A DNA stretch of 64,000 bases from the NCBI GenBank assembly GCA_027494135.1, contig JAOSJK010000012.1:1044795-1108794 (forward strand), in the 5' to 3' direction. This document shows positions 23,651 through 41,617 of this stretch, in pieces (within the stretch, counting starts at the first letter, position 1; each line of letters starts with the position of its first letter). Source of the stretch: Acidimicrobiia bacterium (GTDB lineage Bacteria; Actinomycetota; Acidimicrobiia; IMCC26256; PALSA-610). Below the pieces are notes generated by a model that was not told the DNA's origin, did not search any database, and saw only the letters and a program-made list of their open reading frames with translations. The position numbers and the translations under genes were made by a program.

Positions 23651-25003
23651 TCAGAGCATCGAACCGAGGTCGGATCCGACCGTGGGGTAGGCGGCGGTCA
23701 TCGATTTCAGCTGTCGGGTGGTGAGGCCGAGCTTGATCGCGAGCCCGAAGAAGTTGATGAGCTCGCCGTACTCGGGGCCGAGCAGGTGGGCGCCGACGAC
23801 CGTGTCGTTGGCAGTGTCGACGAGGATCTTGGTGGCGGCGGTTGTCTCACCGACCCGGTAGTTCGAGTACCAGCCGCTGGTGTCGTTGTAGCGGACATCC
23901 ACGTTGATGCCGGCTGCTGCAGCTTGGTCTTCGAGGAGGCCGACGCGGGCCAGCTCGGGGATGGTGAACACTGCCGTGGGGACACCGGCGTAGTCGGGCA
24001 CCGTGGTTGTGCCCTTGAGCATGTTCGATGCGGCGACCTTGCCCTCGAAGACCGCTACCGGTGTCAGTGGCCTGCCGGCGGAGTTGGCAGCGTCACCTGC
24101 GGCGTACACCGCTGGGTTGGTAGTGCTCTGAAGGTGGCCGGCGACGGTCACCCCTGCGGCGGTGTGGGCGACGTTGGCGGCGTCCAGGTCGAGCTTGGAC
24201 AGCTGGGGAACGCGCCCCGCCCCGTGGACGACGAGATCGGTCTCGATGTGGGCAGGGGTGCCGGCGGTGTCAAGGGTGACTCGGTAGCCGGGTCCGGCTG
24301 GCTCGACGGCGGTGATGGTCGTGCCCGGCCGCACGTCGACGCCGGTGTCGGCACTTCGGGTCACCAAGAGGTCGACCAGGTCAGGGTCGAACCCCTTGAG
24401 CGGGCGGACGCCGCGGTCGATGATCACCGGTCGGGCTCCGGCCCGGGCAGCGATGTGGGCGAACTCGAAGGACACGAACCCGCCGCCGACGAAGAGCACG
24501 CGGCTCGGGAGTTCTTCGAGCTCGAGGAAGGCGGTGCTGTCGATGAGGTGCTCGTGGCCGGGGAACTCCAAGGGGCGGGGCCGAGCGCCGGTGGCGATCA
24601 GAAAGTGGGCCGACTCGTAGGCAACATCGTCGACGGCGAGTCGGTGCTCGGCCTCGAAGCGGGCGGTGCCGTGCAACGTCTGGACACCGTTGCGGGTGAG
24701 ACCAGCCTCCATGTTCTGGGGAACCGGGTCGGTGAAGCCGCGCTTGTGCTTCATCAGGTCGGCCCAGTTGATCGTCATGCCGTTGGCGTCGATGCCCTTG
24801 CCGGCCATGAGACGGGCGCTGTCGATGATCTCGGCCCCGCGGCGCAGGATCTTCTTCGGGTCACAACCCCGCAATGCGCAGGTGCCCCCATAGGGAAGTT
24901 CGTCGACGATGGCGACTCTCCGTCCTTGCGAAGCGCACTTGTTCGCGGCCGCGGCGCCGGCCATGCCTGCGCCGATGACGATGAGGTCGAAGGTCTCGGT
25001 CAT
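23651..25003 (-). CDS. FAD/NAD(P)-dependent disulfide oxidoreductase (glutathione/mercuric reductase superfamily)
   Basis: 450 intact residues from ATG 25003. FAD-binding LIVIGAGMAGAAAANKC is at the N-terminus, with the redox-active pair C42-xxxx-C47 in GGTCALRGCDPKK. An NAD(P)-binding RVLFVGGGFVSFEF lies mid-protein, the second FAD motif is AVYAAGDAANS, and a dimerisation domain ends the chain. There is no N-terminal heavy-metal domain and no C-terminal Cys pair, so it is not a standard MerA. It is the third gene of a MerR-controlled operon (thioredoxin-like, membrane protein, reductase) and may regenerate a low-molecular-weight or protein thiol under metal stress. Confidence 0.82.
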   Translation of the reverse strand: MTETFDLIVIGAGMAGAAAANKCASQGRRVAIVDELPYGGTCALRGCDPKKILRRGAEIIDSARLMAGKGIDANGMTINWADLMKHKRGFTDPVPQNMEAGLTRNGVQTLHGTARFEAEHRLAVDDVAYESAHFLIATGARPRPLEFPGHEHLIDSTAFLELEELPSRVLFVGGGFVSFEFAHIAARAGARPVIIDRGVRPLKGFDPDLVDLLVTRSADTGVDVRPGTTITAVEPAGPGYRVTLDTAGTPAHIETDLVVHGAGRVPQLSKLDLDAANVAHTAAGVTVAGHLQSTTNPAVYAAGDAANSAGRPLTPVAVFEGKVAASNMLKGTTTVPDYAGVPTAVFTIPELARVGLLEDQAAAAGINVDVRYNDTSGWYSNYRVGETTAATKILVDTANDTVVGAHLLGPEYGELINFFGLAIKLGLTTRQLKSMTAAYPTVGSDLGSML

Positions 25004-25248
25004 CACGTCATTCCGTCGCGGCGGATCGGTCGATCGCTCGTATCGCACGTGCGGTCGTGGCGGTGGCGACGCCGATCGAGCTGCCACGCGACAGCCACGA
25101 CGACGCACAGACCGGCGGCGGAGACCACCGTCAACGGGCCAGCCGCTGCCAGGGCCACACCCCCGACCAGGCCGGCGATGAGGGTCATCGCGCCGCAGCA
25201 CACGATCGCGGCGATCAGGGCGGCCGGCGCGAGATCCCGTTCACGCAT
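25003..25248 (-). CDS. Small two-helix membrane protein of the MerR-regulated operon
   Basis: 81 residues. Two hydrophobic helices follow: one with an embedded Cys-Cys (LIAAIVCCGAMTLIAGLVGG), then LTVVSAAGLCVVVAVAW. The tail is Arg/His/Cys-rich (RRRHRHDRTCDTSDRP). The CC within the first helix recalls small mercury-transport proteins (MerF/MerT type), but length and sequence do not let me name one. ATG 25248 overlaps the end of the upstream gene, and its stop overlaps the reductase start (TGATG), so all three are coupled. Confidence 0.65.
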   Translation of the reverse strand: MRERDLAPAALIAAIVCCGAMTLIAGLVGGVALAAAGPLTVVSAAGLCVVVAVAWQLDRRRHRHDRTCDTSDRPIRRDGMT

Positions 25249-25534
25249 CGAGGATCGCTTCGAGCTGCTCAGTGGTGGGCGAGCCGGCGGGGCCGTCGGG
25301 GGACTGATACACGCGACACGCCAGCCCAAAGGTTTCGTCCCCCGTCGCAAACGGATCATTGCCATTCACCAGGATCGTCGGTGACCCGCGGAACCGGGCC
25401 GCTTCGGCCTCAGCCGGCGTGGAAACGACCCGCCGCTCGACGTGCAGGCCACGGCGGTACGCGATCGCGTCGAGCCGTTCGGCAGCGATCCTCCAGTTCG
25501 GGCAATCGTCGAAGTACAGCAACTCAACCCTCAT
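25241..25534 (-). CDS. Thioredoxin-like small protein of the MerR-regulated operon
   Basis: 97 residues from ATG 25534. LLYFDDCPNWRIAAERLDAI is the N-terminal signature of a thioredoxin-fold family often found in actinobacterial mercury operons; it has a single cysteine (C11) rather than CxxC. The cis-Pro region is RGSPTILVNGNDPF, and a further cysteine appears in FGLACRVY. It is first in the operon and directly downstream of the MerR-type promoter. Confidence 0.75.
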   Translation of the reverse strand: MRVELLYFDDCPNWRIAAERLDAIAYRRGLHVERRVVSTPAEAEAARFRGSPTILVNGNDPFATGDETFGLACRVYQSPDGPAGSPTTEQLEAILDA

Positions 25535-25575
25535 GGTTCGTTCCCTTCTCAGGCGTGGAATGCCACCCGCGCGCT

Positions 25576-25607
25576 ACCGTAAACCTTCCATTGAGATGGA
25601 AGGTCAA
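25576..25607 (-). promoter_or_regulatory. MerR-type promoter and operator
   Basis: A perfect dyad (arms ACCTTCCAT at 25583-25591 and ATGGAAGGT at 25596-25604, four bases between) lies within a minus-strand promoter. The -35 is TTGACC (25607-25602) and the -10 is TTACGG or TACGGT (25582-25576). The spacer is 19-20 bp, the over-long spacer that MerR proteins correct by twisting DNA. It faces the thioredoxin-like/membrane/reductase operon. Confidence 0.85.
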
Positions 25608-25619
25608 GGGAACTCGAGC

Positions 25620-26027
25620 ATGCGCATCGGGGAACTCGCCGCCCGGAGCGGTGTCACCGCCAAGACCATCCGATTCTGGGAATCGGCTGGGCTCGTTGCC
25701 GATCCGGGCCGGACCCATTCGGGCTACCGCGACTACGACCCCAAGGTCATCGACCGTCTGCACTTCATCCGCCACGCCCAGGCTGCCGGACTGACCCTTG
25801 CCGAGATCCGCCAGGTCCTGGTCATTTCCGACGACGGCGAGCCGCCCTGCGAACACGTCGCCGATCTCATCAACCAGCGTCTCCTCGACGTTGACGACCG
25901 CATCCAGGAGCTCACCGAGGCTCGCTTCCTTCTTGACCGCCTGGCTCAGCGGGCCGCCAGGCAGGACCCAGACGAGTGCGAGGGCTACTGCGTCATCCTG
26001 CAACCCCACCACTCTGCCGACGGGTGA
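25620..26027 (+). CDS. MerR-family metal-responsive regulator
   Basis: 135 residues from ATG 25620. Winged-HTH motif MRIGELAARSGVTAKTIRFW opens the protein, followed by the ESAGLVADPGRTHSGYRDYD wing and a dimerisation helix. Cysteines C77, C120 and C124 sit where MerR/ZntR-type proteins bind metal (EPPCEHV and DECEGYCVIL). Divergent from its target operon, it binds the dyad between them, represses without inducer and activates when metal binds. Hg, Zn, Cd or a related ion is likely; the sequence alone does not decide. Confidence 0.87.
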   Translation: MRIGELAARSGVTAKTIRFWESAGLVADPGRTHSGYRDYDPKVIDRLHFIRHAQAAGLTLAEIRQVLVISDDGEPPCEHVADLINQRLLDVDDRIQELTEARFLLDRLAQRAARQDPDECEGYCVILQPHHSADG

Positions 26028-26077: not shown

Positions 26078-29000
26078 TCAGAGGCCGAAGGCGTCATCGA
26101 GTGTGAGCTGTCGGGTTCCGGATCCTGTCTCGAAGGTCCACCGTTCGTCGTCTATCGCCTGCGCATGCTGGACGGCTTCGTCGATGGCGCCCATGAGCGC
26201 GGCGCGCTCGACGGCCTGGCCGGCGTCGGTAGCGCCGGCGCCGAGCGGCGTGCGCTCGGTGATTGCCCATCGTGCACGGTGGTCGGCGATGTCGGCGACG
26301 AGCTGTTCGATGGCCTGGTCGACATGGGAGTCGCCCGGCGGGTGCAGCTGGGCGGCGAGCGTGAGGAGCCACGGCTCGCGTCCTGCGGCGGCGGTGGCGA
26401 GCGCTGGGCGGGACGCGCCGGCGAGCTGGTCGAGGAGCGGTTCGGGGTCAGGGCCGACGGGCCCGGTGGAGAGGGTGTGGTTGATCTGGGCGTACTCGAC
26501 GACGTGGGGCCAGTGCTCGAGGATCCAGCGGCGCCGATCGCCCTGGGTGGCGAGCGCGTCTTCGAGGAGCCGGGAGGTTTCGTCGGGGTCGAGGGTGCCG
26601 CCACGGCGGAGCCGGTCGATGAGCTTGCGGTGGTCCGCCGGCGCGGTGGCGAGCATGCCGTCGAGGTCGTCCCGGCGGGCGTGGAGCTCTTGGCGGGAGC
26701 GGGTCCGAGTGGTGGGCACGCTCGGCGCGCTGGTGTGGGTGTCGAGCCATATCCGAGCGGATGCCAGCGAACCTGAGGCCTGATCCCACACCGCTCGGTC
26801 GACCGGGTCGGTGTGGTCGGGGCCGGTCGGCCGGTCGGGGTCGTCGATGCCGTGTCGGAGCCGGTGGGCGGCGAGGTCGCGGACGGCGTCGTCCCAGACC
26901 TGCACGGCTGCTGGCCGTTCCGTGGGACGGGGACCGAGGAGCGTGATGAGCCATTCGGGCTGGTCGGCGGCGAGGCGGTGGCGGGCGCGATCGACGGCCA
27001 GTCGGGCGGCGTGTCCGTAGATGTGGCGGTCGGCGGGTTGGACGCCGTGGTCGGCGAGGTGCTGGTTCCACGCTTCGAGCTGTTGGTGGGCGTCGGTGGT
27101 GAGCCGGTCGAGGGTGGCGGTGGCGGTCGGGGTGAGGGGCGGGGTTCGGGGTGGCGGGGCTCGACGATCTGGGTGTCGCCCCAGCCGAGGCTGCGGGTGG
27201 CGGTGCGCCCGTCGGCGGCCACGAAGGTGACCTGCACGGTGCCGGCAGTGTCGTCGAGGGCGGTGATGGTGCCGATGTTGCGTCGGTCGAAGGCCTTGAC
27301 GGTGTGGCCGATGGCGACGTGGCGGGCGGTGTGCTCGGTTCGGGCGAGGCGGTCGCGGAGGACCTGGGGGTGGTGGCCGACGAGGTGGGTGGCGTGAGCT
27401 TCGACGGTGCGGGAGTGGACGGCCCAGCCTTCGAGGGTGACCAGGTCGAGGGTCGTCGCCGCCTGCTGGATGGCCTGGGCGTGGGGGTCCTGGGTGAGGG
27501 CGAGGTCCTTGCGGCGGGAGGTGGTGAGTCGCCCGAGCAGCTCGTGGTCGGTGTCGGGTTGCTCGCCGGGGAGCGGGATGAGGCTGTCGTGGCGGACCAG
27601 ATCCTGGTCGAGGGCGTCGAGTTCGGGGGCGGTGACGATGAGCCAGTTCGAGGCCCGGCCGCGGGAGAGGACGAGGTAGCCGGCTTCGCGGTAGAGCCCG
27701 TCGAGGCCGACGGTGATGGCGAGGTCCCAGGTGCCGCCTTGGGCGCGGTGGGCGGTGGAGGCGTAGGCGTGTCCGATGGCGTCGGCGGCGAGGTGGTCGG
27801 GGGTGAGGACGACGTCGAGGTTGTCGTGGTCCATGCGTAGGACCAGGCCGGCGTCGCATGTGCCGGTGAGGGTTCCGGTCTGGCCGTTCAGTACCGCGAC
27901 CTGGTGCCCGGTCGGGGTGGTGGCGCGGTAGTCGTTGGCGCGGATCACGAGCCGCTCACCGACCGCGAGGGTGCCGTTCGAGCCGTCGATGGCCGGGCCG
28001 AGCACCCCGTGGTCGAGGAGCGCGCGGCGGACGGCGGTGTTGAGGGCGTCGACGGTCTGGTTGGTGCCGGCGAGAAGCACCGGGACGGTGCCGGCGTGGT
28101 GGGCGGCCAGCCACCGGTCCACGGCCTCGCCGATCATGGCCGGTCGGTCGCCAGCGACGATGACCCGGCCGTGGGTCTGGTAGGCGGCGACGGCGCGGGC
28201 GACGTGGCCGTCACGCAGCTCGGCCAGGGCCACGCGTTCCCAGCTGTGGTCCTGGCGGCGGTTGACGGACAGTTCGGCGACGGTGGCGGCGGGGTCGGTG
28301 GCGAGGGCGGCGAACCCGCCGCCAGCGGTGACCTCGGGGAGCTGGTGGTGGTCGCCGACGAGAAGCACCCGGCCGCCGGCTTCGACCACGGTGGCGGTGA
28401 GGCGGTCGAGGTCACGGAGCCCGGCCATTGCGGCCTCGTCGACCACGAGCAGGGTGCGGGCGTCGGGGCGGTCGTAGCCGCGGGCCCAGGAGCCGAGCCG
28501 GCGGTGAATGGTGGCCGAGGCGATGTGGGCGTCGGCTTGGAGCTCGTGGGCAGCCTTGGCCGAGGGCGGCCCCAAGGACCTGGTAGCCGGCGGCGGCGTA
28601 GACCTGTCGGACGGCGTCGAGGGTGAAGGTCTTGCCGGTGCCGGCGGGGCCGACCATGACGCTGATGGCGTCGAGGGCGCGCCCAGCATGCGGACTGCGG
28701 TCTCCTGGTCGGCGCCCAAGGTTGGGAGCCGCTCGAGCACGCCCTCGACGTGTCGGGCGTCGATGGCGCTGCGGGTATGGCGTGTCGGCGCGGCCCGGTC
28801 GAGGAATCGGCGCTCGACCTCGAGCAGCTCAGTGGTCGTCCATCGTGGCGGGCCGTCGCCGGCGACGGGAACCAGTTGGGTGGAGGCGAGCACGCGGGCG
28901 GTCATGCGGTCGACGGTGTGGGCGGTGGCACCTTCCCGATGCGTGCGGCGACGGCTTGGACGAGGTCGGGTCGGGTGAAGGTCGAGTCGTGCTCGGTCAG

Positions 29001-30098
29001 GGCTCGAGCGACCGCGGCGATCCACTCCTCGGGGCAGACGGCCCGGTCGGCTACGGCGCCGGTGTGGGGATCGCGGCTGGGGAGCCGCCAGATCTCGTCG
29101 ATGCCAGGCGCGTGCCGGTCGGTGGTGGAGGCGATGAGGGCATCGGCGTGCTCGGGTCCCCAGCCGACGGCGTGGGCTGCGGCCTTCCAGGCGGCGTCGA
29201 AGCGTTCGTGTTCAGCCTCGGGCTTGTCGCGGCGGGTGGCGAGCACGGCGGCTTGGCGGCCGGCCGCGTCGTCAGGGGTGCCGGTGGCGGCCAGCCAGGC
29301 ATCGACCTCGGCGGCGCGTTTGGAGAACTGGTCACACAGGGTCTGGGGGACGCCGGCGATCTCGGGGACGTGGCGTCCGGCTCGCCACTGGAGGCCGAGG
29401 CGTTCGGTGAGCTCGCCCCGCAGCACGGTCTGGAACAGCTCGCCGGCGGCCCGCACGGCCCGGTACAGCTCGGGATGCACGAACGCGCCCCACCGGCCGT
29501 CGGGGCCTTCGACCAGGTTGGCGACCAGGGTGTGCCAGTGCAGCAGCGGGTCACCAGCGCGGGAGGTGCGATGCCGGAACGTGGCGGCCACCACGCCGCG
29601 GCCGGGCAGGACCCTGATGCGGGCGGCGTCGGCGGCTGCGGGGTCGCGGGCGGCGAGGTCGTTGAGGTAGGCGACGTCGCCCGAGCCGCGCCGGACCCGG
29701 ATCACTTCGCGCTCCAGCCACGACACGGCCTCACGCACGGCGATCTCGCCGGCCTCGATGATGGCGCCCTGGACCCGGGGGTCGTCGGAGACGGCATAGA
29801 GGACACTGACCGACTTCGGGGTCTTGAAGGTGAGGTCGAACCCGGGGACCCGGCGGACATGGGTTCGGACGGTGGACCCGTCCGGGGTCAGGCCGCCCGA
29901 GCCGGGGGCGAGGCCGGCGAGCACGGCGCGCAGGTCGTCGGGGTCGACCTCGCCGGCCAAGCCGAGCCGTTCGGCTCCCGCGCCGATCCACAGGCCGGCG
30001 GCCTCGCCGGCGCCGGTGTAGTAGTCGTCGAGGGACTGGGCGACGCCGGAGAGCTGGTAGGCCTCCTGGCCGACCCGGAGCTTGGCGATCGACAGCAC
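26078..30098 (-). CDS. MobF-family conjugative relaxase with C-terminal RecD-like helicase (frameshifted)
   Basis: About 1,340 residues. The N-terminal TrwC/MobF domain has tyrosines in LDDYYTGAGE (Y26/Y27) and the metal site H176 with HWH 187-189 in LLHWHTLVANL. The helicase part has Walker A VGPAGTGKTFTLDAV, Walker B TLLVVDEAAMAG, GDHHQLPEV and the motif VI-like STAHRAQGGTWD. The tail is helical and ends RQLTLDDAFGL. Frame changes lie near 28925, 28680, 28580 and 27150; each side matches the family. GTG 30098 sits at the edge of repeat array C. The enzyme nicks at oriT, stays bound to the 5' end and unwinds the transferred strand. Confidence 0.88.
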
Positions 30099-30157: not shown

Positions 30158-30235
30158 GAAATCCTCGTGCACCACCGCCGGTGATTATCTGTGTGCGCGA
30201 TCCGGTTCAGTCCCGGCTCGGTCCCGATCGCAGCG
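30158..30235. other. Candidate oriT region
   Basis: This short stretch lies between the relaxase start and the divergent gene. It holds a local inverted repeat (CACCACCGCCGGTG), then the only AT-rich patch nearby (GTGATTATCTGTGTGCG), flanked by TCCC repeats. MobF oriT sites usually lie next to the relaxase gene with an inverted repeat before nic. No nic consensus can be proven from sequence; assignment is by position. Confidence 0.4.
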
Positions 30236-31157: not shown

Positions 31158-31373
31158 GTGGCGTTGCCCGAGCATGACGAGGTGGTGGGCGCGGTGGAGG
31201 TGGCGCGCCGGCTCGGGGTGGCACGGGCGACGGTGGACCAGTGGCGCCAGCGATCGGTGCTGCCCGATCCGCGGTGGCAGGTGGGGGGCCGGCCGGCATG
31301 GTCGTGGGCCGAGGTGCGGGCGTGGGCCGAGCGCACGGGCAGGCTGGACTCATCAAAGGCGCCTCCGCCGTAG
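31158..31373 (+). CDS. Small HTH regulator (AlpA/MerR-like)
   Basis: 71 residues from GTG 31158, immediately after a -10-like TATACA. VVGAVEVARRLGVARATVDQW with RWQVGGRPAWSWAEVRAWAE forms a compact winged HTH of the AlpA/excisionase type. It is divergent from a second small HTH gene set and probably binds the intergenic inverted repeat. Confidence 0.65.
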   Translation: MALPEHDEVVGAVEVARRLGVARATVDQWRQRSVLPDPRWQVGGRPAWSWAEVRAWAERTGRLDSSKAPPP

Positions 31374-31414
31374 GCATCTCGAGACCGTCCCGTCGGAGGT
31401 GTTGTTCCTACGGG

Positions 31415-31949
31415 TCAGCGGGGCCGGTGGTGGCGGGGTCGCCGCTGGCGTGGACTGTGGCGGCACGGGTTGGGGGTCGGATCGGGTTCGAGGGGCGGGA
31501 CGTAGCGCTCGAGGGCGAGGAGCTGCTGGGCGGCGTCGTGGGCGGCGGCGGGGTGGGGGTAGGGGCCTTGGAGGGTTGCCCACCGGTCGACTTCGTAGCT
31601 GTCCATGATCCCGTACCAGCGGATCGGTCCGGTGGGGCTGTCGGCGCCGAACTCGACGATGTCGCCGGCAGCGAGCTGGTGCGGGAGCCGCCACCCTCGG
31701 CCCGAGGCGGGATCGGCCGCCCACAGTTGGCGGGCCCAGCCGCCGGGGGGCGGTGGGGTCGGGCCAGGTGGTGGCGACCCACACGGTGTGGCCGGGGCCG
31801 GTCGGGACGGGGAGGTCGATGATGGCGCCGTCGGGGGCGCGGAGACGGTGTCGTCCGTACCGGTTCCAGTCGTAGGCCGGTTCGCCGGGTCCGTCGGGTT
31901 GGCGGGCGGTTGGGGGCGTGGGGTCGGGTTGGTGGCGTCGTCTGAGCAT
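31415..31949 (-). CDS. Hypothetical protein of the leading region (frameshifted)
   Basis: About 178 residues; ATG 31949 has AGGAGG upstream. The N-terminal part (MLRRRHQPDPTPPTARQPDG ... GAIIDLPVPTGPGHTVWVAT) and the C-terminal part (AAGDIVEFGADSPTGPIRWYG ... AQQLLALERYVPPLEPDP) are in different frames. They join near 31745 in a six-G run. The family is not recognised. Its leader carries a partial copy of the CACGGCAC-hairpin repeat (32013-32044). Confidence 0.55.
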
Positions 31950-32012
31950 CGGGTGAGCCTCCTGGTCAGATGGCTCGCGACGCTACGAAGCCGGTTGTCT
32001 CGGGTTGCCTGG

Positions 32013-32044
32013 AACGGCACCCGCCCGCAGGGCGGCCACGGCAC
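32013..32044 (-). repeat. Leader repeat IV (partial): two CACGGCAC-type boxes around a hairpin
   Basis: AACGGCAC and CACGGCAC, 24 bp apart, flank the hairpin CCGCCC-GCA-GGGCGG. Same layout as the fuller copies at 33077, 34248 and 36366; located 64-95 bp upstream of the 31949 start. Confidence 0.6.
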
Positions 32045-32130
32045 GCCCGCCGGCCGACCGGCACCGCGGACGCCACCCGGCGGCCTGCCACGTGGCGCCC
32101 GGCGCGTGCCGGGGGTCGGGTCTGGCGGCG

Positions 32131-33047
32131 TCAGGCGGCGGCCTCGTCGTCGGCGCTGGTGTGGTGGCCGGCGAGGGTGTTGAGGTGGTCGACGGCGGCT
32201 TGGGCGCGGCTGGCCACGGTGATCAGGGCGCGGGCGTCGGTGCGCAGGACGCGAAGCCAGCCGGCGAGGTAAGCGGCGTGGTCGGTGCGGGTGACGGCGG
32301 AGAGGCCGGCTTGGGCGCACCACATGGCGGCGCCGAGCTCGGCGACGAGCTCTTCGGCGGCGTAGCTGTCGGTGCCGAAACGGCCGGTGAGGTCGCGGGC
32401 GAGGCGGCTGTAGTGGCCGGTCCAGTGGACGGTTTCGTGGGCGCGGGTGCCGTAGTAGTGGGCGGCGGTGTCGAAGGCGTCGAGGGCGGGGAGGTGGATG
32501 GTGTCGGTGGCGGGCTGGTAGCAGGCCCGGTTGCCGCCTTCGATGACGGTGGCGGCGATGGCGGCGAAGTAGTCCTCGGCGGCGCCGATCCGCTCGGGGG
32601 TGTCGCGCTCGGCGAGGTGGTGGGCGCGTCGGGCGATGACCTCCTCGGCGCCGTCGCACTGCTCGGCGGCGAACACGGCATAGGCGCGGGCCAGCAGCCG
32701 GGGGCGGCGTGCCCGGTCGCCGCCGGTGTCGTCGTTGTCGTCGCTGGGCTTGGGGGTGACGGGCTTCCAGAGGATGACCTGGGTGGCCTTCTCGCCGCGG
32801 CGGACCTGGGCGCCGTGGCGTTGCCAGGCCCGGTAGGTGGCCCAGGTGCCCGAGGTCAGTCGCGGGCGGTGGCGACCATGGCCAGCCACAGGGCGTTGGC
32901 GCCGCGGTAGGGGCGGCCGTCGACGCTGGTGGGGGTGCCGGCATCGGCGAGGGTGTGCCAGGGCATGCGCCACGCTCCGGCGGCGCCGGTCTCGATGTCG
33001 GCGATGAGTTGGTCGGTGATCTGGGCGAACAGGTCCTCGGCGTGCAT
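32131..33047 (-). CDS. ardC: ArdC-family antirestriction protein (frameshifted)
   Basis: About 305 residues. The N-terminal ssDNA-binding domain starts MHAEDLFAQITDQLIADIET and includes WRMPWHTLADAGTPTSVDGR and YRGANALWLAMVA. One missing base near 32858 joins it to TSGTWATYRAWQRHGAQVRRGEKAT. The C-terminal domain carries the zinc metalloprotease motif HETVHWTGHYSRLARD. ArdC proteins bind single-stranded DNA and protect an incoming element from host restriction. ATG 33047 has GAAGGGA upstream. It lies in the leading region, oriented toward the putative oriT, behind a long hairpin-rich leader. Confidence 0.87.
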
Positions 33048-33076
33048 GGCGGGTTCCCTTCGGGTCGGGTCCGGTT

Positions 33077-33228
33077 GGGGCTTCGCCCCTACGGGGCGTC
33101 CTGGCCCGCCGCCCTGAGCGCCGCTGTCAACCCGAAGGGCTTGGCCCCGGAGCTTGCGGAGGGGCTTGACAGCGGCGCGGCGGCGGGCGACACGGCACCA
33201 CCGGCCCACCGGGCCGGTGCCACGGCAC
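33077..33228 (-). repeat. Leader repeat I upstream of ardC
   Basis: Three modules. (a) GC hairpin GGGGCTTCGCCCC with CTACGGGGCG (33077-33098). (b) Long stem with TGTCAACCC (33125-33133) and GGGGCTTGACA (33161-33171), enclosing CGAAGGGCTTGGCCCCGGAG. (c) CACGGCAC boxes at 33191 and 33221 around a perfect hairpin CACCGGCCC-ACC-GGGCCGGTG. The element sits between the WhiB stop and the ardC start. It has no T run, so it is not a typical intrinsic terminator. Confidence 0.75.
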
Positions 33229-33256
33229 ACCCGCCCAGCCCCGCGAGCCGGTGGGG

Positions 33257-33688
33257 TCAGTGCCGGGTGGGAAACAGGGCTCGGCCGCGGCGTTCGACGA
33301 CGCCGAGGCGCACGGCTCGTTCGAGGGTCTTGTAGGCGGTGGCGGTGGGGAGCCAGATATGGTCGAGGAGCTGGTCGAGGGCGGGCCGGTCGGGGTCGGC
33401 GTCGATGAGCAGGTCGTAGAGCTCGTCGTCGCTGATGCGGGACGCCGGTCCCGGTGCGGGGTCTGGCCGTGGTGGTGGCGTGGGGCGTTCGTCGGCGGCG
33501 AGCCCGCCCCAGACGCCGTACTCCTCCCCGGTCGCGACCGCGTGGGCGGCGCAGGCGGCCCGGACCGGGCAGGCGGCGCAGGTGGTCTTGGCGGCGGCGA
33601 CCGCGGCTGGGTGGGCGTCATAGAACAGGGCCGGGTCGGTGCCGCGGCAGGCGGCCTGGGTGCGCCAGGCCGCCGGGCCGGCGGTCAT
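33257..33688 (-). CDS. WhiB-family iron-sulfur transcription factor
   Basis: 143 residues, intact. Cysteines C14, C37, C40 and C46 (ACRGTDPALFYD ... TTCAACPVRAACAAHA) would hold a [4Fe-4S] cluster, followed by the GVWGG turn (58-62). The C-terminal extension (ISDDELYDLLIDADPDRPAL ... TAYKTLERAVRLGVVERRG) looks like an added winged helix. WhiB proteins are actinobacteria-specific redox-sensing regulators that bind the main sigma factor; element-borne copies may switch transfer genes. It starts 5 bases after the stop of the upstream HTH gene. Confidence 0.88.
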   Translation of the reverse strand: MTAGPAAWRTQAACRGTDPALFYDAHPAAVAAAKTTCAACPVRAACAAHAVATGEEYGVWGGLAADERPTPPPRPDPAPGPASRISDDELYDLLIDADPDRPALDQLLDHIWLPTATAYKTLERAVRLGVVERRGRALFPTRH

Positions 33689-33693
33689 GGCGG

Positions 33694-34148
33694 TCAGGGG
33701 GCGTCGTAGGCGGCGGCCAGGTAGGCGGGGAGCCCGCAGCGCTGCCGGTAGGTGAGCGGTGCCAGCCAGAGGCGCACGGCGATGGTGGTGCCGTGGCGGC
33801 GGATGATCCCAAACCGCTCCAGGCGGTCCAGGCTGCGCAACACTCGGGGGCGGAGGGGCCGAGGCCGAAGGTGCGGGCGATGTCGTCGATGGTCCAGGTG
33901 GAGGGGCCGTCGGCGGCGTGGCGGGCGAAGCGGTGGGCCATGGCCATGCCGATGGTGCCGATCGAGGGCGTGTACCAGACGAGAGCGTCGTCGCTGTCGG
34001 TGGCGATCGCGCCGGGTGCGCTCTCGACGATGGGGTCGCGCCAGGCGATCACCGTCACGGTGTCGCCCGCGCTGCGCAGCGGCTCGCCGTCGCCGTCGTG
34101 GGCGGGGTCGGTGGCGGTGTGCTCGGTGGTGGGGGTGGTGGTGGTCAT
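33694..34148 (-). CDS. Winged-helix protein of the leading region (frameshifted)
   Basis: 151 residues from ATG 34148. The protein opens with a Thr-rich disordered segment, then GDTVTVIAWRDPIVESAPGA and a helix pair (TIGMAMAHRFARHAA; STWTIDDIARTFGLG). Past a shift near 33850 it continues RVLRSLDRLERFGIIRRHGT and TIAVRLWLAPLTYRQRCG to TGA 33694. The middle is a winged HTH (IDDIARTFGLG ... VLRSLDRLERFGII). Probably a transcription regulator, in an operon with whiB. Confidence 0.65.
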
Positions 34149-34247
34149 CGGGGCTCCTTGGGGGTCGGGTGACCCAGCCCCAGGGGTCCGGCGGCTTCCC
34201 CGACCGACCTCGCCCCGGGGGCTGGTGTCGTGCCCGACCGGGTGGCC

Positions 34248-34409
34248 GGGCTTCGCCCTACGGGCGCCCGGGCCGGCGGCGACGCCGTGTCAACCCGAAG
34301 GGCTTGGCCCCGAGCTCGCGAGGGGCTTGACACGAGCGGCGGCGACGGCCCACACGGCACCCCCGCCGCAGGCGGGTCACGGCACCCGTCCGCAGGGCGG
34401 CCACGGCAC
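34248..34409 (-). repeat. Leader repeat II upstream of the winged-helix/whiB operon
   Basis: (a) Hairpin GGGCTTCGCCCTACGGGCG (34248-34266). (b) GTGTCAACCC (34287-34296) pairs with GGGGCTTGACAC (34322-34333) around CGAAGGGCTTGG. (c) Three CACGGCAC boxes at 34353, 34378 and 34402, separated by hairpins CCCGCC-GCA-GGCGGG and CCGTCC-GCA-GGGCGG. This is the most complete copy. Confidence 0.78.
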
Positions 34410-34449
34410 CGGCGGCCCCGACGAAACGGCCCGCCCAACCACAGGGAGG

Positions 34450-34485
34450 TCCCGGAGTTCGTCCCGAGATCACTCCTGACCGCTG
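34450..34485. repeat. Array D: three 12-bp TCCC-type repeats
   Basis: TCCCGGAGTTCG, TCCCGAGATCAC and the degenerate TCCTGACCGCTG. The first two match units of array A almost exactly. The array lies between the parB stop and the leader of the winged-helix/whiB operon. Confidence 0.7.
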
Positions 34486-34559
34486 CGAATCCTCCTCAGG
34501 TCGAACGCGAGACGGCCCGGCCGTCCCGTCAGGGATGGCCGGGCCGTCGCTCGCGCGGG

Positions 34560-35995
34560 TCAGCTGGCGAGGTCGACGTCCCCGTCGTCGCTCTCGTCCT
34601 CGGTGTCGGCCTCGTCGTCGGGGTCCGTCGCGGGTGCGGCGAGGGCGGCGGCGGTCCAGTCGTCGAGGGTCCAGCCCGACCCGGTGAGCAGCCCGAGGTA
34701 GTCGCGGCACTGGGCGCTGGTGGCGGACCAGTACATGCGGGACTCGGCCTGGCCGAGGGCGACGGCTCCGGCGACCCTGGTCAGCGCGGTGGGGCTGTCG
34801 ACGCCGTCGAGCAGCGTGGCGGCGGTGACGTCGCGGGGGTCGTCGTGGCCGAGCATGGTGGCCGCGAACACGACGGCGTCGCGTCCGGCCTCGAGGATCA
34901 GGCCGCGCAGCGCGACGCGGGTGAGGTCGGTCTGGTTGAACCCTCCCCTGGCCTTGGCGAAGGTGTCGGTGGCGTGGGCGAGGCGGGCGAGGCGGCTGGC
35001 GCGCTTGGCGTGGGAGTCGTCGCCGCTGCCGGGCCGGTGACGGCTGGGGGGTGCGGTCGGTGGCCAGGTCGCTGCCGGTGGCGGTGCCGACCCGGTTGGG
35101 GGCGTGGCGGCGGGGGTCGGTGCACACCTCGGCGCGCTCGTACCCGTCGCCCCAGCCGATGCGGCGCACGACCACGGCGTGGCACGGCTCGTCGCGGTGG
35201 GCGGTGCAGCCGTCGGGGTCGAAGAGCTCGCCGAGCCGCGTGGCCTTGTCGGGGGCGGGGTCCTCGCTGGTGAAGACCCGACCGTCGGTGGCCTGGGCCT
35301 TGTCGACGGCCCGCTGGTAGGCCTCGTCGCGGCGCAGGTCGTCGCGGTAGTTGACCACGATCCGGGCGGGGTCGCCCCAGCGGCTCTGGGCGAGTTGTTC
35401 GCAGACGGCGTCGAGGTGGTCGGGGCCGAGGTCGGCGGCGGTGGCGGCGGCTTCGCCGGCGGCGAGGGTGAGGTCGCCGGTGTCGAGCGCGGTGCGCCAG
35501 CGGGCCGGGAGGATGGTGACGGCCATGCGGGACCGCACCCAGGCTTGGGAGCGGCCGATGCGCTTGCACAGCTTGGCCGGGGGTGAGGCCGTCGTCGAGG
35601 GACATGAGGCGTTCGATGGCCCGGACCTCTTCGGCGACGGTGAGGTCGGAGCGGTTGACGTTCTCGCTGAGCATGGCCTCGATGACCTCGGCTGGGCTCA
35701 TGTGGCGCACGACGGCGGGGACGTCGCTCACGCCCGCTTTGAGGCCGGCCGCGTGGCGGCGGTGCCCGGCGATGATCCGGTAGACGCCGTCGGTGTCGGC
35801 GGGGAGGACGACGAGGGGTTCGAGGATGCCGTGGGCGCGGATCGAGCGGACCAGTTCGGTCAGGTCCCCGAGCGAGGTGCGCGGGTTGTCTGGGTGGGCG
35901 GCGAGGTCGGCGAGGTTGAGCCAGCACAGCTCCGGTTCGCCCGACATCGTGTCGTCGCCGGTGTCGATGCTGGTGGTGGGGTCGGTGGTGGTCAT
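34560..35995 (-). CDS. ParB-like partition/regulatory protein (frameshifted)
   Basis: About 478 residues. The N-terminal ParB domain shows LCWLNLADLAAHPDNPRTSL, then GILEPLVVLPADTDGVYRII with AGHRRHAAGLKAG (Box II). ENVNRSDLTVAEEVRAIERL leads into the HTH, which continues after a shift near 35580 (VRSRMAVTILPARWRTALDT, GDLTLAAGEAAATAADLG). A second shift near 35040 joins a C-terminal helical and acidic part (DEADTEDESDDGDVDLAS). ParB-type proteins bind repeated sites for partition or gene control, so this is a good candidate reader of the TCCC arrays. Its ATG overlaps the stop of the upstream small gene. Confidence 0.82.
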
Positions 35996-36300
35996 GACGG
36001 TGCTACCTCCAAGGTCGCAGCGATGGTCTGGATCCACGGGCACGACGGCGTGTCCGTGGCGACCCGGTGCGGGTCGATGTGGGCACAGGTGGCGTCCGAC
36101 GCTCGGACCCACACCTCGCCCTGTTCGGCCAGCACCCGGCGAGCGGCGGTCACCGCCACCCCCAGCGACGACGTGCACACCTGCTCGCGGCCGTGCCGGT
36201 CGATCACCACGTAGCTGGGGACACGCCCGGAGGGCAGATGGAACAGGACGGGCTGCGTGCCTGGCGGCACACACGTCGCCACAGGTTCAGGACGGTTCAC
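35992..36300 (-). CDS. Small hypothetical protein upstream of parB
   Basis: 102 residues from GTG 36300 (TTG 36303 adds one residue). It reads VNRPEPVATCVPPGTQPVLF, HLPSGRVPSYVVIDRHGREQ and GVAVTAARRVLAEQGEVWVR: a small alpha/beta fold with no recognised family. It ends in an ATGA overlap with parB, so the two are coupled; leader repeat III lies just upstream. Confidence 0.6.
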   Translation of the reverse strand: MNRPEPVATCVPPGTQPVLFHLPSGRVPSYVVIDRHGREQVCTSSLGVAVTAARRVLAEQGEVWVRASDATCAHIDPHRVATDTPSCPWIQTIAATLEVAPS

Positions 36301-36365
36301 CAACAGATGGGGCCTCTCGTTCGGATGCCGGGTGCGGTGGTCCCTGCCGGTCGGCCGGGACTCCG

Positions 36366-36522
36366 CCCTACGGGCGGGCTGGGCCGCCGGCCCGGCGCCG
36401 TGTCAACCCGAAGGGCTCGGCCCCGGAGCTTGCGGAGGGGCTTGACACGGCGACGGCGGCGGCCCACACGTCACCCCGCCGCAGGCGGGACACGGCACCC
36501 TCCCGCAGGGCGGCCACGGCAC
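36366..36522 (-). repeat. Leader repeat III upstream of the parB operon
   Basis: (a) CGCCCTACGGGCGGG hairpin (36365-36379). (b) GTGTCAACCC (36400-36409) pairs with GGGGCTTGACAC (36437-36448). (c) CACGTCAC (36467) and CACGGCAC (36491, 36515) at a 24-bp period, with hairpins CCCGCC-GCA-GGCGGG and CTCCC-GCA-GGGCG between them. Confidence 0.76.
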
Positions 36523-37713: not shown

Positions 37714-38903
37714 GCCAACGAGGATCCATTCACCGGCGAGGCGACACGTGGACGGTCCGGTGGCGGACCGACACCGCCGAGGGCCGCAAGCACCACTCCA
37801 AGGGCGGGTTCCGCACCAAGAAGGAAGCCCAGGACTTCCTCACCGACGTCATGGCCGCCCTGCGCGGCGGCGTGTTCGCGGAGCCCACGAAGGTCACCGT
37901 CGGCGACTTCCTCACCGAGCGGTGGCTGCCCGCACGCCAGCTGTCGCTGCGGCCCAGCACCTACGCCAGCTACCAGACCGCGATCAACTGCCACGTCGTA
38001 CCGGAGCTCGGTCACATCCAGATCCAGCAGCTCTCCCCTGACCGCCTCGACCGCTTCTACGCCGATCTCGTCGCGTCAGGCTTGTCGGCCAAGACGGTCC
38101 GCAACATCCACGCCCTGCTCCACAAGGCGCTGCGCGACGCCGTGCGCAAGAACCTCGTGCCCCGCAACGCCGCCGACGCGGCCGACCCGCCCAAGCTGGC
38201 CCGGGCCAACGGCGAGGAGATGAAGACCTGGACCCCGGCCCAGCTGCGCGTGTTCTTCGACGGCATCGCCGGGCACCGCCTGGCCCCCGCCTACCTGCTG
38301 GCGGCCACCACCGGGATGCGCCGCGGCGAGGTGCTCGGCGTGCGCTGGCGCGACATCAGCTTCCCGGCCCGCCGGCTGCACGTCCGCCAGACCATCCTGT
38401 CGGTCAACTACCAGGTGACCGTCGGCCAACCCAAGACCCGCCGGGGGGAACGCAAGATCTCCCTCGACGCCGCCACCATCGAGGTGCTGCGCGCCCACCG
38501 GACCGCGCAGCGACGCGAACGACACCTGCTCGGCGACGGCTACCGGGACCAGGACCTCGTGTTCGCCCGCCCCGACGGCAGCCCGATCCACCCCGACTAC
38601 TTCTCCCAGACCTTCGACCGCACCGTGAAGCGCCTCGAGCTGCCCAAGATCCGCCTGCACGATCTTCGCCATACGCACGCCACGTTGGGCCTGGGCGCCG
38701 GGGTGCCGGTCAAGATCATCTCGGACCGGCTGGGCCACGCCACGACCTCGTTCACCATGGACGTCTACATGCACGCCATCCCCGCCGCCGAGGACGACGC
38801 CGCCGACCAGATCGCCGACCTCATGTTCGGCCGCGACGACGAGGCAGAGTCGGACGACTCGGATGCCGACGAGGGACCCGTTGGCCAGGGAGGTGACGCG
38901 TGA
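37710..38903 (+). CDS. int: Tyrosine site-specific integrase of the conjugative element
   Basis: 397 intact residues. The N-terminal arm-binding domain is SIHRRGDTWTVRWRTDTAEG with GGFRTKKEAQDFL. The SAM-like core-binding domain begins VTVGDFLTERWLPARQLSLR. The catalytic domain has R in TTGMRRGEVLGVRW, HxxR in HDLRHTHATLGLG and the nucleophile Y in TSFTMDVYMHAIP. It joins circular attP to chromosomal attB. No tRNA gene or obvious att repeat was found beside the gene, so the element ends are not defined here. Confidence 0.93.
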   Translation: MSQRGSIHRRGDTWTVRWRTDTAEGRKHHSKGGFRTKKEAQDFLTDVMAALRGGVFAEPTKVTVGDFLTERWLPARQLSLRPSTYASYQTAINCHVVPELGHIQIQQLSPDRLDRFYADLVASGLSAKTVRNIHALLHKALRDAVRKNLVPRNAADAADPPKLARANGEEMKTWTPAQLRVFFDGIAGHRLAPAYLLAATTGMRRGEVLGVRWRDISFPARRLHVRQTILSVNYQVTVGQPKTRRGERKISLDAATIEVLRAHRTAQRRERHLLGDGYRDQDLVFARPDGSPIHPDYFSQTFDRTVKRLELPKIRLHDLRHTHATLGLGAGVPVKIISDRLGHATTSFTMDVYMHAIPAAEDDAADQIADLMFGRDDEAESDDSDADEGPVGQGGDA

Positions 38904-38979
38904 CGCCACGAGCGTCGCGTCGGCGGGGTTGCGCGCGGGTCCGCGTCGCGGGTCGGGCCCGACGCCAGACTGCTGTGAG

Positions 38980-39963
38980 ATGAGCCGCCTTCCCGACCCG
39001 AGTCCGGTGTTCGAGTCGTTTTGGCGGTTCGCGGCCGAGCGGCACGCGATGTACCAACGGCGCTTGGCCGGCCTGCCCGCACCATGGACCGACGATCCGG
39101 TCCTCGGCGAGTACCGGTTCACGAACGCGTTCCGTGCCTCGGACCGCGTCAGCCAGTACCTCATCCGCGACGTGATCTACGCCGGCGACGCCGACGACGA
39201 TGTCGCCGAGGTCGTCTTCCGGGTCGTGTTGTTCCGGCTGTTCAACAAGATCGACACCTGGGAGCTGCTCGCCGGTGAGGTGGGGCCACCGTCGCTGGGA
39301 TCGTTCGATCCCGTCGCCGCCGACCGAGTGTTGGCGCGCGCCCGGTCCGAGGGTCGCCGCGTCTACTCCAGCGCCTACATCATCCCGCCGCGACCCGGCT
39401 GGCCGGCCCCCAAGCACGCCGGCCACCTCCAGCTCGCCGTCGACCTCGTTGAGGACGGCCTCACCGAGCGGATCGAGTCGACCGCCGATCTCCGGGACCT
39501 CTTCGGGTTGTTGCACCGCGTGCCGGGACTAGGTGACTTCCTCGCGTATCAGCTGGCCATCGACCTCTGCTACAGCCCCGTTGTGGATCACGACGAGGAC
39601 GAGTTCGTCGTCGCCGGTCCCGGTGCGCTCGACGGGTTGTCGAAGGTGTTCCCGGGCATGGACCTTCGCCAGGCGGCCGAGGTGATCCAGGCGCTCACCG
39701 AGGACCAGGACCGCTGGTTCGAGCACTTCGGGCTGGCGTTCTCGGGGCTGTTCGGGCGACGTCTGCACCTGATCGATGTGCAGAACCTGTTCTGCGAGAT
39801 CAGCAAGTACGCCCGCGTCGCCCACCCCGAGGTGGCGGGCGTGGCCGGCCGCACCCGCATCAAGCAGACCTTTCGGCCCCTCGGTGCGCTGCCCGAGCCG
39901 TTCTTCCCGCCGAAGTGGGGTCTGCCGACGAACACGGCTGCCCCGGCGCTCGAGGCCGTCTAG
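38980..39963 (+). CDS. Alpha-glutamyl/putrescinyl-thymine pyrophosphorylase clade 2 / hmdU-kinase helical-domain protein
   Basis: 327 intact residues from ATG 38980. FESFWRFAAERHAMYQRRLA, then PAPWTDDPVLGEYRFTNAFR with ASDRVSQYLIRDVIY, is the signature of the 5-hmdU DNA kinase helical / aGPT-Pplase2 family, found in phage pathways that build hypermodified thymine. The C-terminal half (LDGLSKVFPGMDLRQAAEVI, HLIDVQNLFCEISKYARV) contains the glycosylase-like HhH region of that family. It is convergent with the MazG-like gene; the stop codons share CTAG. A role in thymine-derived base or nucleotide chemistry is inferred from the family. Confidence 0.72.
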   Translation: MSRLPDPSPVFESFWRFAAERHAMYQRRLAGLPAPWTDDPVLGEYRFTNAFRASDRVSQYLIRDVIYAGDADDDVAEVVFRVVLFRLFNKIDTWELLAGEVGPPSLGSFDPVAADRVLARARSEGRRVYSSAYIIPPRPGWPAPKHAGHLQLAVDLVEDGLTERIESTADLRDLFGLLHRVPGLGDFLAYQLAIDLCYSPVVDHDEDEFVVAGPGALDGLSKVFPGMDLRQAAEVIQALTEDQDRWFEHFGLAFSGLFGRRLHLIDVQNLFCEISKYARVAHPEVAGVAGRTRIKQTFRPLGALPEPFFPPKWGLPTNTAAPALEAV

Positions 39964-40895
39964 CGATCCGATGCGCTGGGCGGCCCGTCGTAGGTGAGGG
40001 TGCGGCGGTTCAGGTCAGCGGTGAGAATGCCGCCCCGGTGAGCGACCACGTTGCGGAAGGCGTCATAGCCAGCGATCACGGCCTGGTGCCAGTCGGCCAG
40101 GGAGCGAGCGGAGACCTCGAGGTGGGCGGTCATCTTGGCGCAGGTCTTGATGATGCTGGGCGGCACGTGTTGCAGGTTGGCGAAGTAGGAGTGGGCGCCG
40201 GCCATGGTGAACACGTACGCGGTCAAGCCCTCTTCGATGGCGGCGGCGCGGCCGCCGTCTTGGATCCGGTCGACCGACGGTTGGTTCGATCGCTTGCGGT
40301 CCAGCAGGCGTCGCATGACCGGCGACCAGCCGAGCACGGCCATGTGCGCGAGGTGGAACACGTCGTGGTAGCGGTAGTCGTCGTCGTGTTCGCTGTTGTC
40401 GTCGAGGGGGTCGCCGACGGGCGAGTCGCCCGCGTACATCCGCACCCGTTGGAGGCGTTCGCCGTGCTTGGAGGTCTCCTCCGTCTCGACGAGGGTGACC
40501 GTGAGCTGGTCGGGGAATCGCTGCCCATCGGGTAGGCCGGCATCGAAGGGGTCCTGGGGTGGGAGCTCGGTGCCGGAGCGGAACAGGTCGTGAGTCTTGG
40601 CCAGGTTGGCGCGGGCGATCTCGCCGAGGTCGAGGCCGTTGTGGCGAGCCAAGGCTGCGGCGTACCAGAGGATGTCGCCGAGCTCTTCGCTGACCTCGTC
40701 CTCGAAGGCCCGGTAGCCCTGCCGGTCGCGTTGGCGTTTCTTGTACTCGGCGACGAGCTGGCCGACCTCGCCGGCGAGGCCGAGCAGCGGCATCAGCGGG
40801 TCATCGGCGGTGAGGATGTCGGTGCGGGCGGACAGCTCCTGGTAGGTGGTCAGGTCCATGGGTTCGTCCTCGGATTGCGGCTCGAGCGTGGTCAT
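39960..40895 (-). CDS. MazG-like nucleoside-triphosphate pyrophosphohydrolase with C-terminal extension
   Basis: 311 intact residues. The MazG all-alpha domain (residues 15-90) shows LGLAGEVGQLVAEYKKR and EDEVSEELGDILWYAAALAR, the ExxE/ExxD metal-binding pattern. The long C-terminal part (YRYHDVFHLAHMAVLGWSPV, MRRLLDRKRSN ... IIKTCAKMTAHLEVSARSLA) is a helical domain with HD-like residues and unknown role. MazG enzymes hydrolyse NTPs or dNTPs, including non-canonical ones. ATG 40895 overlaps the peptidase stop: it is the last gene of the 45.2-40.0 kb operon. Confidence 0.78.
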   Translation of the reverse strand: MTTLEPQSEDEPMDLTTYQELSARTDILTADDPLMPLLGLAGEVGQLVAEYKKRQRDRQGYRAFEDEVSEELGDILWYAAALARHNGLDLGEIARANLAKTHDLFRSGTELPPQDPFDAGLPDGQRFPDQLTVTLVETEETSKHGERLQRVRMYAGDSPVGDPLDDNSEHDDDYRYHDVFHLAHMAVLGWSPVMRRLLDRKRSNQPSVDRIQDGGRAAAIEEGLTAYVFTMAGAHSYFANLQHVPPSIIKTCAKMTAHLEVSARSLADWHQAVIAGYDAFRNVVAHRGGILTADLNRRTLTYDGPPSASDR

Positions 40896-41617
40896 CGGGT
40901 TGCGAGGGTGCTGGGGTCGGCGACGCCAGCCTGGACGGCGAAGGCGACGAGGTAGTCGTAGGGCAGCCAGCCGTAGCCGCCGGCTCCCCAGCCCGGTCCC
41001 CACGAGTTGCGGATGAGCAGCCGTCGGGTCGTGCCAGCAGGGTTGGTGGCGGCGCCGACGGCGAGCACTGCGTGGTAGTCGCTGACCGGCGCGGTGAGCG
41101 GTGGGAGATCGATCTCGCCGTCGGCGGCGGGGTGGTCGAACTGGTCGGTGAGCTCGACGACGAGGACCACTGGGAGTCCGATGGCGAGGGCCGCTTCGAT
41201 GGGGGCTTCGATGCCGTCGTGGACGAGGGGGACCTCGATCCCGTCGACGGTCATGAAGTTCGCGGTGGCGGCGGTGACGGGGATCGGTTCGGTGCCGGCG
41301 CCGAGCGTGTTGTTGTACGGCCAGACGGCGTCGGTGGGCTGGCCGGTCGAGGAGACGGCGTCGGTGACGGCGTGCAGGGTGGTGCCGCTGTGGCTGGCCA
41401 CGCCGGCCTGCACGCAGTGTCGCCAGAGCGGCTCGACGGCCAGCATCTCAGCGCCTGCGGCGAGCTGGGCGCGGGCGGCTTCGTGGGCGGCCGAGACCGT
41501 GAATGGCAGGCACAGCGGTCGCGGGCCCTGGTCGCGCACCCCGGGTGGCAGCAGGTGGCGGAGGTCGATGGGCCCGAGCGCGAGGCTGGTGGCGCGGCGC
41601 GTCGAATGGGGGGTCAT
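40892..41617 (-). CDS. Papain-like (C1 family) cysteine peptidase
   Basis: 241 intact residues. The catalytic Cys is in VRDQGPRPLCLPFTVSAAHE, the His in VSDYHAVLAVGAATN, and the Asn in RLLIRNSWGPGWGAGGYGWL, all in papain order. No signal peptide is visible, so it should act in the cytoplasm. It is encoded 19 bp after the ImmA/IrrE-chagasin gene; chagasin-type domains inhibit exactly this peptidase family, so the neighbour may be its inhibitor. Confidence 0.82.
   Translation of the reverse strand: MTPHSTRRATSLALGPIDLRHLLPPGVRDQGPRPLCLPFTVSAAHEAARAQLAAGAEMLAVEPLWRHCVQAGVASHSGTTLHAVTDAVSSTGQPTDAVWPYNNTLGAGTEPIPVTAATANFMTVDGIEVPLVHDGIEAPIEAALAIGLPVVLVVELTDQFDHPAADGEIDLPPLTAPVSDYHAVLAVGAATNPAGTTRRLLIRNSWGPGWGAGGYGWLPYDYLVAFAVQAGVADPSTLATR

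Follow-up and report, generated by a model that had tools for sequence, protein, structure and literature searches.

The window analysed here, a 64-kb stretch of DNA, comes from a 1.19-Mb contig in an incomplete genome and carries three complete leaders (33073-33236, 34243-34409 and 36353-36522), together with one reduced leader that consists of boxes only. The genes and features of this region are as follows.

28902..30098, minus strand: MOBF (TrwC) relaxase (PF08751, E 9e-69; TrwC structure 1omh, E 9e-33)
30173..30193, plus strand: candidate oriT/nic upstream of the relaxase, CACC-GCC-GGTG-ATTATC^TGTG, also written CACCGCCGGTGATTATCTGTG
31980..31985, minus strand: TAGCGT, candidate ordinary -10 of the 31353-31949 gene, read by eye
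32014..32044, plus strand: leader 1, reduced, assigned from sequence; two boxes flank one cGCAg hairpin and the core stem is absent
32131..33047, minus strand: ardC anti-restriction gene (ArdcN and MPTase-PolyVal), frame split near 32.86 kb
33073..33236, plus strand: full leader 2, in front of ardC (covariance model R1, 104.6 bits, E 5e-16; DNA fold z -4.5), comprising a gene-proximal hairpin, an outer stem, an inner stem carrying GTCAA/TTGAC, a cGAAg hairpin, another hairpin, and CACGGCAC boxes at 33191 and 33221
33257..33688, minus strand: whiB (PF02467, E 9e-22)
33618..34148, minus strand: winged-helix-like gene under leader 3; the listed ORF overlaps the whiB ORF start
34243..34409, plus strand: leader 3, full, upstream of the winged-helix/whiB operon (R1 126.6 bits, E 8e-20), boxes at 34353, 34378 and 34402
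34560..36303, minus strand: orf36 and parB under leader 4 (ParB_N, E 2e-17; parB frame-split)
36353..36522, plus strand: leader 4, full, upstream of the orf36/parB operon (R1 117.9 bits, E 2.5e-18; DNA fold z -3.8), boxes at 36467 (CACGTCAC), 36491 and 36515

The leading region of an apparently integrated element

The gene identities given in a first-pass annotation of this DNA proved correct for ArdcN/MPTase, Whib, ParB_N and the TrwC relaxase, and no Pfam family was found for the gene at 31353-31949. The element also encodes a T4SS coupling protein, a HerA/VirB4-like ATPase and a tyrosine integrase. A relative in genome G345 shares 90-94% DNA identity across most of 27.8-45.2 kb and, because it sits in a 3.7-Mb single contig, the element appears to be integrated (ICE). 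The relaxase-helicase (26152-30098), ardC (32131-33047) and parB (34560-35996) are broken over frames here, and the ardC ORF is whole in G345; these frame breaks look like indel errors of the assembly.

The motif GGTG..-TCTGTG is conserved upstream of 8/8 homologous, divergent relaxases (60-100% identical to that of the window). Positions 30173-30193 resemble the R388 hairpin and nic region, and we have placed the nic position and its polarity by this analogy. The plus strand would then be the T-strand, transferred rightwards across the leaders with the relaxase last, and the leader fold would thus lie on the incoming strand, as had been proposed at first pass. Leaders are separated from the relaxase by oriT and, where the genes are identifiable, lie on the strand opposite to ardC, winged helix, parB and relaxase. 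Copies are antisense to, and directly upstream of, one of the following: ardC, the winged-helix/whiB operon, parB, or a gene of ParA-like type. In the window, G345 and L093 alike, the relaxase is followed by a hypothetical gene, ardC, a leader, whiB, the winged-helix gene, a second leader, parB, orf36 and a third leader. Winged-helix homologues adjoin leaders in L090, L092, L093, L095, L089 and L098 (PF09107 was weakly matched in the L093 homologue), and elsewhere leaders precede ParA-like ATPase genes, in L095 (weak Pfam CbiA match) and in L092 (by P-loop sequence alone). The place of the leaders, confined to the leading region, is well supported, and the layout claimed earlier, with leaders upstream of operons that point towards oriT, stands.

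In addition, a conserved GGGGAAG(T)CCCC-like element was seen between leader and winged-helix gene, e.g., at 34190-34240 of the window and 2340-2400 of L092. It also occurs in leaderless sister elements (L144, 11410-11440; L145, 2440-2475).

Fold, covariation and distribution of the leaders

Read on the plus strand, a full leader consists of the gene-proximal hairpin, an outer stem of 8 bp, an internal loop and an inner stem ending in GTCAA/TTGAC, followed by a three-way junction with hairpins H1 (CCC-GNA-GGG) and H2 (CCCC...GGGG). Beyond the junction come single-stranded CACNGCAC boxes with GC hairpins in between. The cores TGTCAACCC...GGGGCTTGACA were located at 33125-33171, 34288-34332 and 36401-36447. 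Four modular leaders had been described at first; this holds for the three full ones and fails for 32013-32044, where two boxes and one GCA-loop hairpin stand and the core stem is absent. The spacing of the CACGGCAC boxes, with a period of 24-30 bp and GC hairpins between them, reads as claimed. The box module of leader 1 recurs upstream of the homologous gene in G345, L153, L152 and L090, and its presence without the core implies that part of the leader has another use.

Folded as DNA on the strand that would enter first, the three full leaders gave z = -4.5, -3.2 and -3.8, with 0/200 shuffles as stable for each leader; for leader 3, the plus-strand value of -3.2 compares with -0.55 on the minus strand.

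A pattern scan of 84,980 species genomes, combined with the covariance models R1 and R2, led to 33 leader copies in 11 Acidimicrobiia-type genomes. Stem covariation among homologues, which the first-pass annotation had proposed to look for, was found: the model alignment of the 33 copies (A4) has 94.9% of its pair cells formed and two-sided changes at 18/29 pairs, with a covariation score of 0.378 against 0.106 +/- 0.010 in shuffled alignments and 0.026-0.088 with the partner slid. None of the fold measures was attained in 500 shuffles (0/500, 33 copies). These numbers are biased in that A4 was fitted to the structure, but its stems are nearly gap-free, and a first MAFFT alignment of 14 copies already held 10 two-sided pairs. 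The covariation of 33 homologous copies places the fold beyond chance, and the conserved fold of the leaders is well supported. As the copies are kin and counts from them are not independent, they were grouped into 21 clusters by a simple k-mer rule for the comparisons below.

The named carriers are Acidimicrobiaceae, Ilumatobacteraceae, Acidimicrobiia and other Actinomycetota MAGs. Five of the 395 genomes in the class search have copies (G000, G112, G259, G345 and G365), and those in G395-G400 came from a search around named loci. Outside the Acidimicrobiia-type class, no leader was found among 396 genomes drawn across the phylum, which returned only two already known genomes; the large searches used stricter filters, so weak relatives may be missed. 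Within the 395 class genomes, a MOBF relaxase at least 61% identical to that of the window is accompanied by leaders in 4/4 genomes, and genomes with only more distant relaxases have them in 0/82. Similarly, core-like leaders were sought and not found in the L144-L146 elements (relaxases 46-54% identical) and in the L154, L156 and L157 elements (about 40% identical). The leaders track one relaxase clade. Scatter over non-mobile genes, named earlier as evidence against the proposal, was not seen: the sole solitary copy (G365; L088, 9808-9949) precedes an ardC-like start in a genome with no relaxase match and is probably a relic. The G399 bin (L093, L094, L095) holds three different elements of the leader-bearing family with three leaders each.

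Several candidates were dropped from these searches. Non-actinobacterial genome matches (L025, L029, L032, L033 and L034) have the look of ordinary TTGACA promoters with unrelated inner sequence. Viral-contig matches of the first pattern likewise resemble ordinary TTGACA promoters around unrelated inner sequence, and the stricter core pattern gives none. The plasmid matches of one leader (those in M. poriferae, M. paragordonae, M. vanbaalenii and Embleya were inspected) are GC-rich chance matches.

Strand of the fold

Paired arms fold alike on both strands, so that the loops and mismatches decide the strand. In helices 2 and 3 of the 21 clusters, 18 G.T mismatches are found on the T-strand against 5 A.C. 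The loop of the core hairpin H1 is GNA or GNNA on the T-strand in 19/21 clusters, the other two being without recognisable H1, and the box-hairpin loops are GNA/GNNA in 20/33 cases on the T-strand and in none on the sense strand. With DNA parameters and the whole leader, the T-strand folds better than its complement in 18/21 clusters (mean -2.65 kcal/mol; shuffles -0.59 +/- 0.31). RNA parameters show no clear preference (T-strand against complement 12 to 9, or 7 to 13 when the gene-proximal hairpin is left out). Triloops of the d(GNA) type closed by C-G are known as stable DNA loops (PMC5815330). The GNA/GNNA loops, the excess of G.T over A.C and the better folding as DNA assign the selected fold to the T-strand, and point to a fold of DNA in the template strand of the genes.

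An exception is the gene-proximal hairpin, whose GNA loops sit on the sense strand, so that this hairpin may act in the transcript. Together with leader ends that lie 14-29 nt before many start codons and with a cUNCg-like H1 on the sense strand, it would suit a structured RNA, placed in the 5' UTR or between genes of the sense transcript and controlling translation, stability or attenuation of each operon. We consider this reading unlikely, as the template-strand mismatches and box loops speak against it, the GNNA variants (GTCA, GCGA and GCCA) suit template-strand DNA, folding with RNA parameters does not clearly favour the sense strand, and TAnnnT is absent within 130 nt upstream. The STAXI motif (RF01728; PMC2864571) also forms repeated structures close to genes for anti-restriction and SSB proteins, and a role in single-stranded DNA was considered for it; unlike the leaders, it consists of tandem pseudoknots, judged to be RNA for their UUCG loops. 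The window gives no match to the RF01728 model up to E = 1, and a scan with Rfam 15 returned two weak matches below the gathering score, none on a leader.

The promoters of the phage N4 virion RNA polymerase are also DNA hairpins of the template strand whose G...A loops have a closing C-G pair, and such a hairpin withstands SSB (PMC4496689). The N4 promoters are small hairpins with a 3-nt loop, served by the phage's own single-subunit polymerase, whereas the leaders are about 150 nt long. The leader could similarly be an N4-like promoter or a regulatory cruciform that extrudes from supercoiled double-stranded DNA and acts in the donor or in the settled element. Loops of the 5'G..A3' kind closed by C-G do extrude at physiological supercoiling, with the N4 template-strand hairpin resisting SSB (PMC4496689). 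However, stems that are long and imperfect are expected to extrude poorly, neither the confinement to the leading region nor the constant orientation would be explained, and a Pfam scan of 30 window proteins showed no RNA polymerase of phage type; we regard this reading as very improbable.

Three further readings were set aside. A plain double-stranded operator (inverted GTCAA/TTGAC) is out since free covariation of the stems is seen even among the leaders within a single element, a double-stranded promoter read on the sense strand from TTGACA has no -10 and variable spacing, and UNCG tetraloops on the sense strand are not formed because the perfect stems of 5-9 bp leave triloops only.

Promoter-like features and a possible role at entry

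TTGAC is present on the 3' arm in 33/33 copies and GTCAA on the 5' arm in 32/33 (GTCAC in L096_24), a box that the search pattern demanded for the first copies only, the model-found copies being free of that demand; the sixth position covaries (A20/C7/G5). The distance between the TTGAC box and the base of the outer stem is 17 nt in 12 copies and 18 nt in 21 (sd 0.48), while the opposite 5' arm measures 17-22 nt (sd 1.81). An arm of 17-18 nt is the spacer length of a sigma-70-type promoter, on the would-be non-template strand.

On their sense strand, 32 leaders contain no TAnnnT, against 6.1 expected (P 0.003); it is likewise absent within 110 nt towards the gene, within 130 nt upstream and on the leader T-strand. 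At the right spacing on the folded T-strand there is no recognisable -10 consensus, and CACACG/CACCAC stands there. The missing -10 is a real gap in the promoter reading. One of the two leaderless sisters inspected, L144, has TTGACG-18-TGTATT at the corresponding place before the winged-helix gene; in the other, L145, no clear ordinary promoter was scored. The reduced leader 1 lies beside the TAnnnT at 31980..31985, and a TAnnnT recurs at the matching place in G345, L153 and L093. The promoter of L144 and the TAnnnT beside leader 1 indicate that the core occupies the place expected of a promoter.

As far as the literature cited here shows, F-type plasmids alone have proven single-stranded promoters. 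The Frpo/ssi sequences of F and ColIb-P9 type plasmids (PMC9849209, PMC11541004) resemble the leaders in being intergenic T-strand folds of a MOBF leading region, present in several copies, one per operon, with genes directed towards oriT, a -35-like TTGAC in the stem and anti-restriction or establishment genes downstream. Unlike the leaders, whose -10 is not recognisable, the Frpo/ssi stem recreates canonical -35 and -10 boxes. The leaders differ further in their three-way junction, GNA hairpins and CACNGCAC boxes, in their occurrence in Acidimicrobiia-type genomes only, and in preceding ardC, winged helix, WhiB and ParB/ParA, with an activity that we infer, where Frpo/ssi precedes SSB/PsiB. 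No sequence similarity to Frpo/ssi came up when one leader was searched against 72,556 plasmids, including those of Enterobacteriaceae: the best places cover no more than 35% of the query, with E values no better than 0.004. Judged by sequence or by a canonical -10, the leader is not a Frpo member.

Fold, strand and place together are best explained by a promoter role. We therefore lean, by a little, towards the full leader being a single-stranded-DNA promoter, Frpo-like in its working but unrelated, which probably allows the genes for anti-defence and partition to come on ahead of second-strand synthesis. The plus strand would enter the recipient with its 5' end at about 30190 and fold into the long stem with its internal loop, the three-way junction and the small GNA-loop hairpins. 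In the stem, TTGAC of the 3' arm would pair with GTCAA to give a double-stranded -35-like box; this box would lie 17-18 nt from the stem foot, where the single-stranded CACNGCAC boxes start. RNA polymerase, perhaps joined by another protein at the boxes, would begin at the stem foot and copy the T-strand towards oriT, giving early mRNA for ArdC, the regulators (winged helix and WhiB) and ParA/ParB; the transcript might also prime synthesis of the second strand. Conversion to double-stranded DNA would abolish the fold, and the genes under leader control would fall quiet. The transcription start, the polymerase, the boxes as a protein site and the timing are all putative elements of this scheme.

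Alternatively, the leader might serve only as a single-strand initiation site, priming complementary-strand synthesis in the recipient with no promoter for a gene. Such a site shares the T-strand evidence, and Frpo has been described for primer RNA synthesis too, to go by the title of Masai and Arai (1997) as cited in PMC11541004. However, the copies precede separate leading-region operons in constant orientation, where sister L144 has a conventional promoter, and priming alone requires neither repetition per operon nor such placement; we find this quite unlikely.

Within the reading as a single-stranded-DNA promoter, a narrower proposal is tentative and in our view falls short of even chances: the leaders may form a -10-less promoter class outside Enterobacteria-type plasmids, unrelated to Frpo, in which the structured T-strand would provide the paired TTGAC and a 17-18 nt arm that terminates at a single-stranded fork, and the CACNGCAC boxes would recruit either polymerase or a factor encoded by the element, limiting expression of the entry genes to the single-stranded phase. 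If true, a distant lineage would hold a second, unrelated solution, expression from entering single-stranded DNA would be a general, convergent strategy of conjugation, and ArdC, WhiB and ParA/ParB would come under entry control. Moreover, the template-strand test (GNA loops, G.T versus A.C) allows such elements to be recognised from sequence in further leading regions.

Finally, other genes of the window were noted. At 38863-41003, next to the integrase, a gene whose product has the helical domain of a 5-hmdU DNA kinase (PF18723) adjoins a MazG_C gene, placing hypermodification-type genes on the ICE. A large type ISP restriction-modification enzyme (12117-15359) lies within the transfer region, and the likely cargo at 23651-26027 is a mercuric reductase-like pyridine nucleotide-disulphide oxidoreductase together with a MerR regulator.
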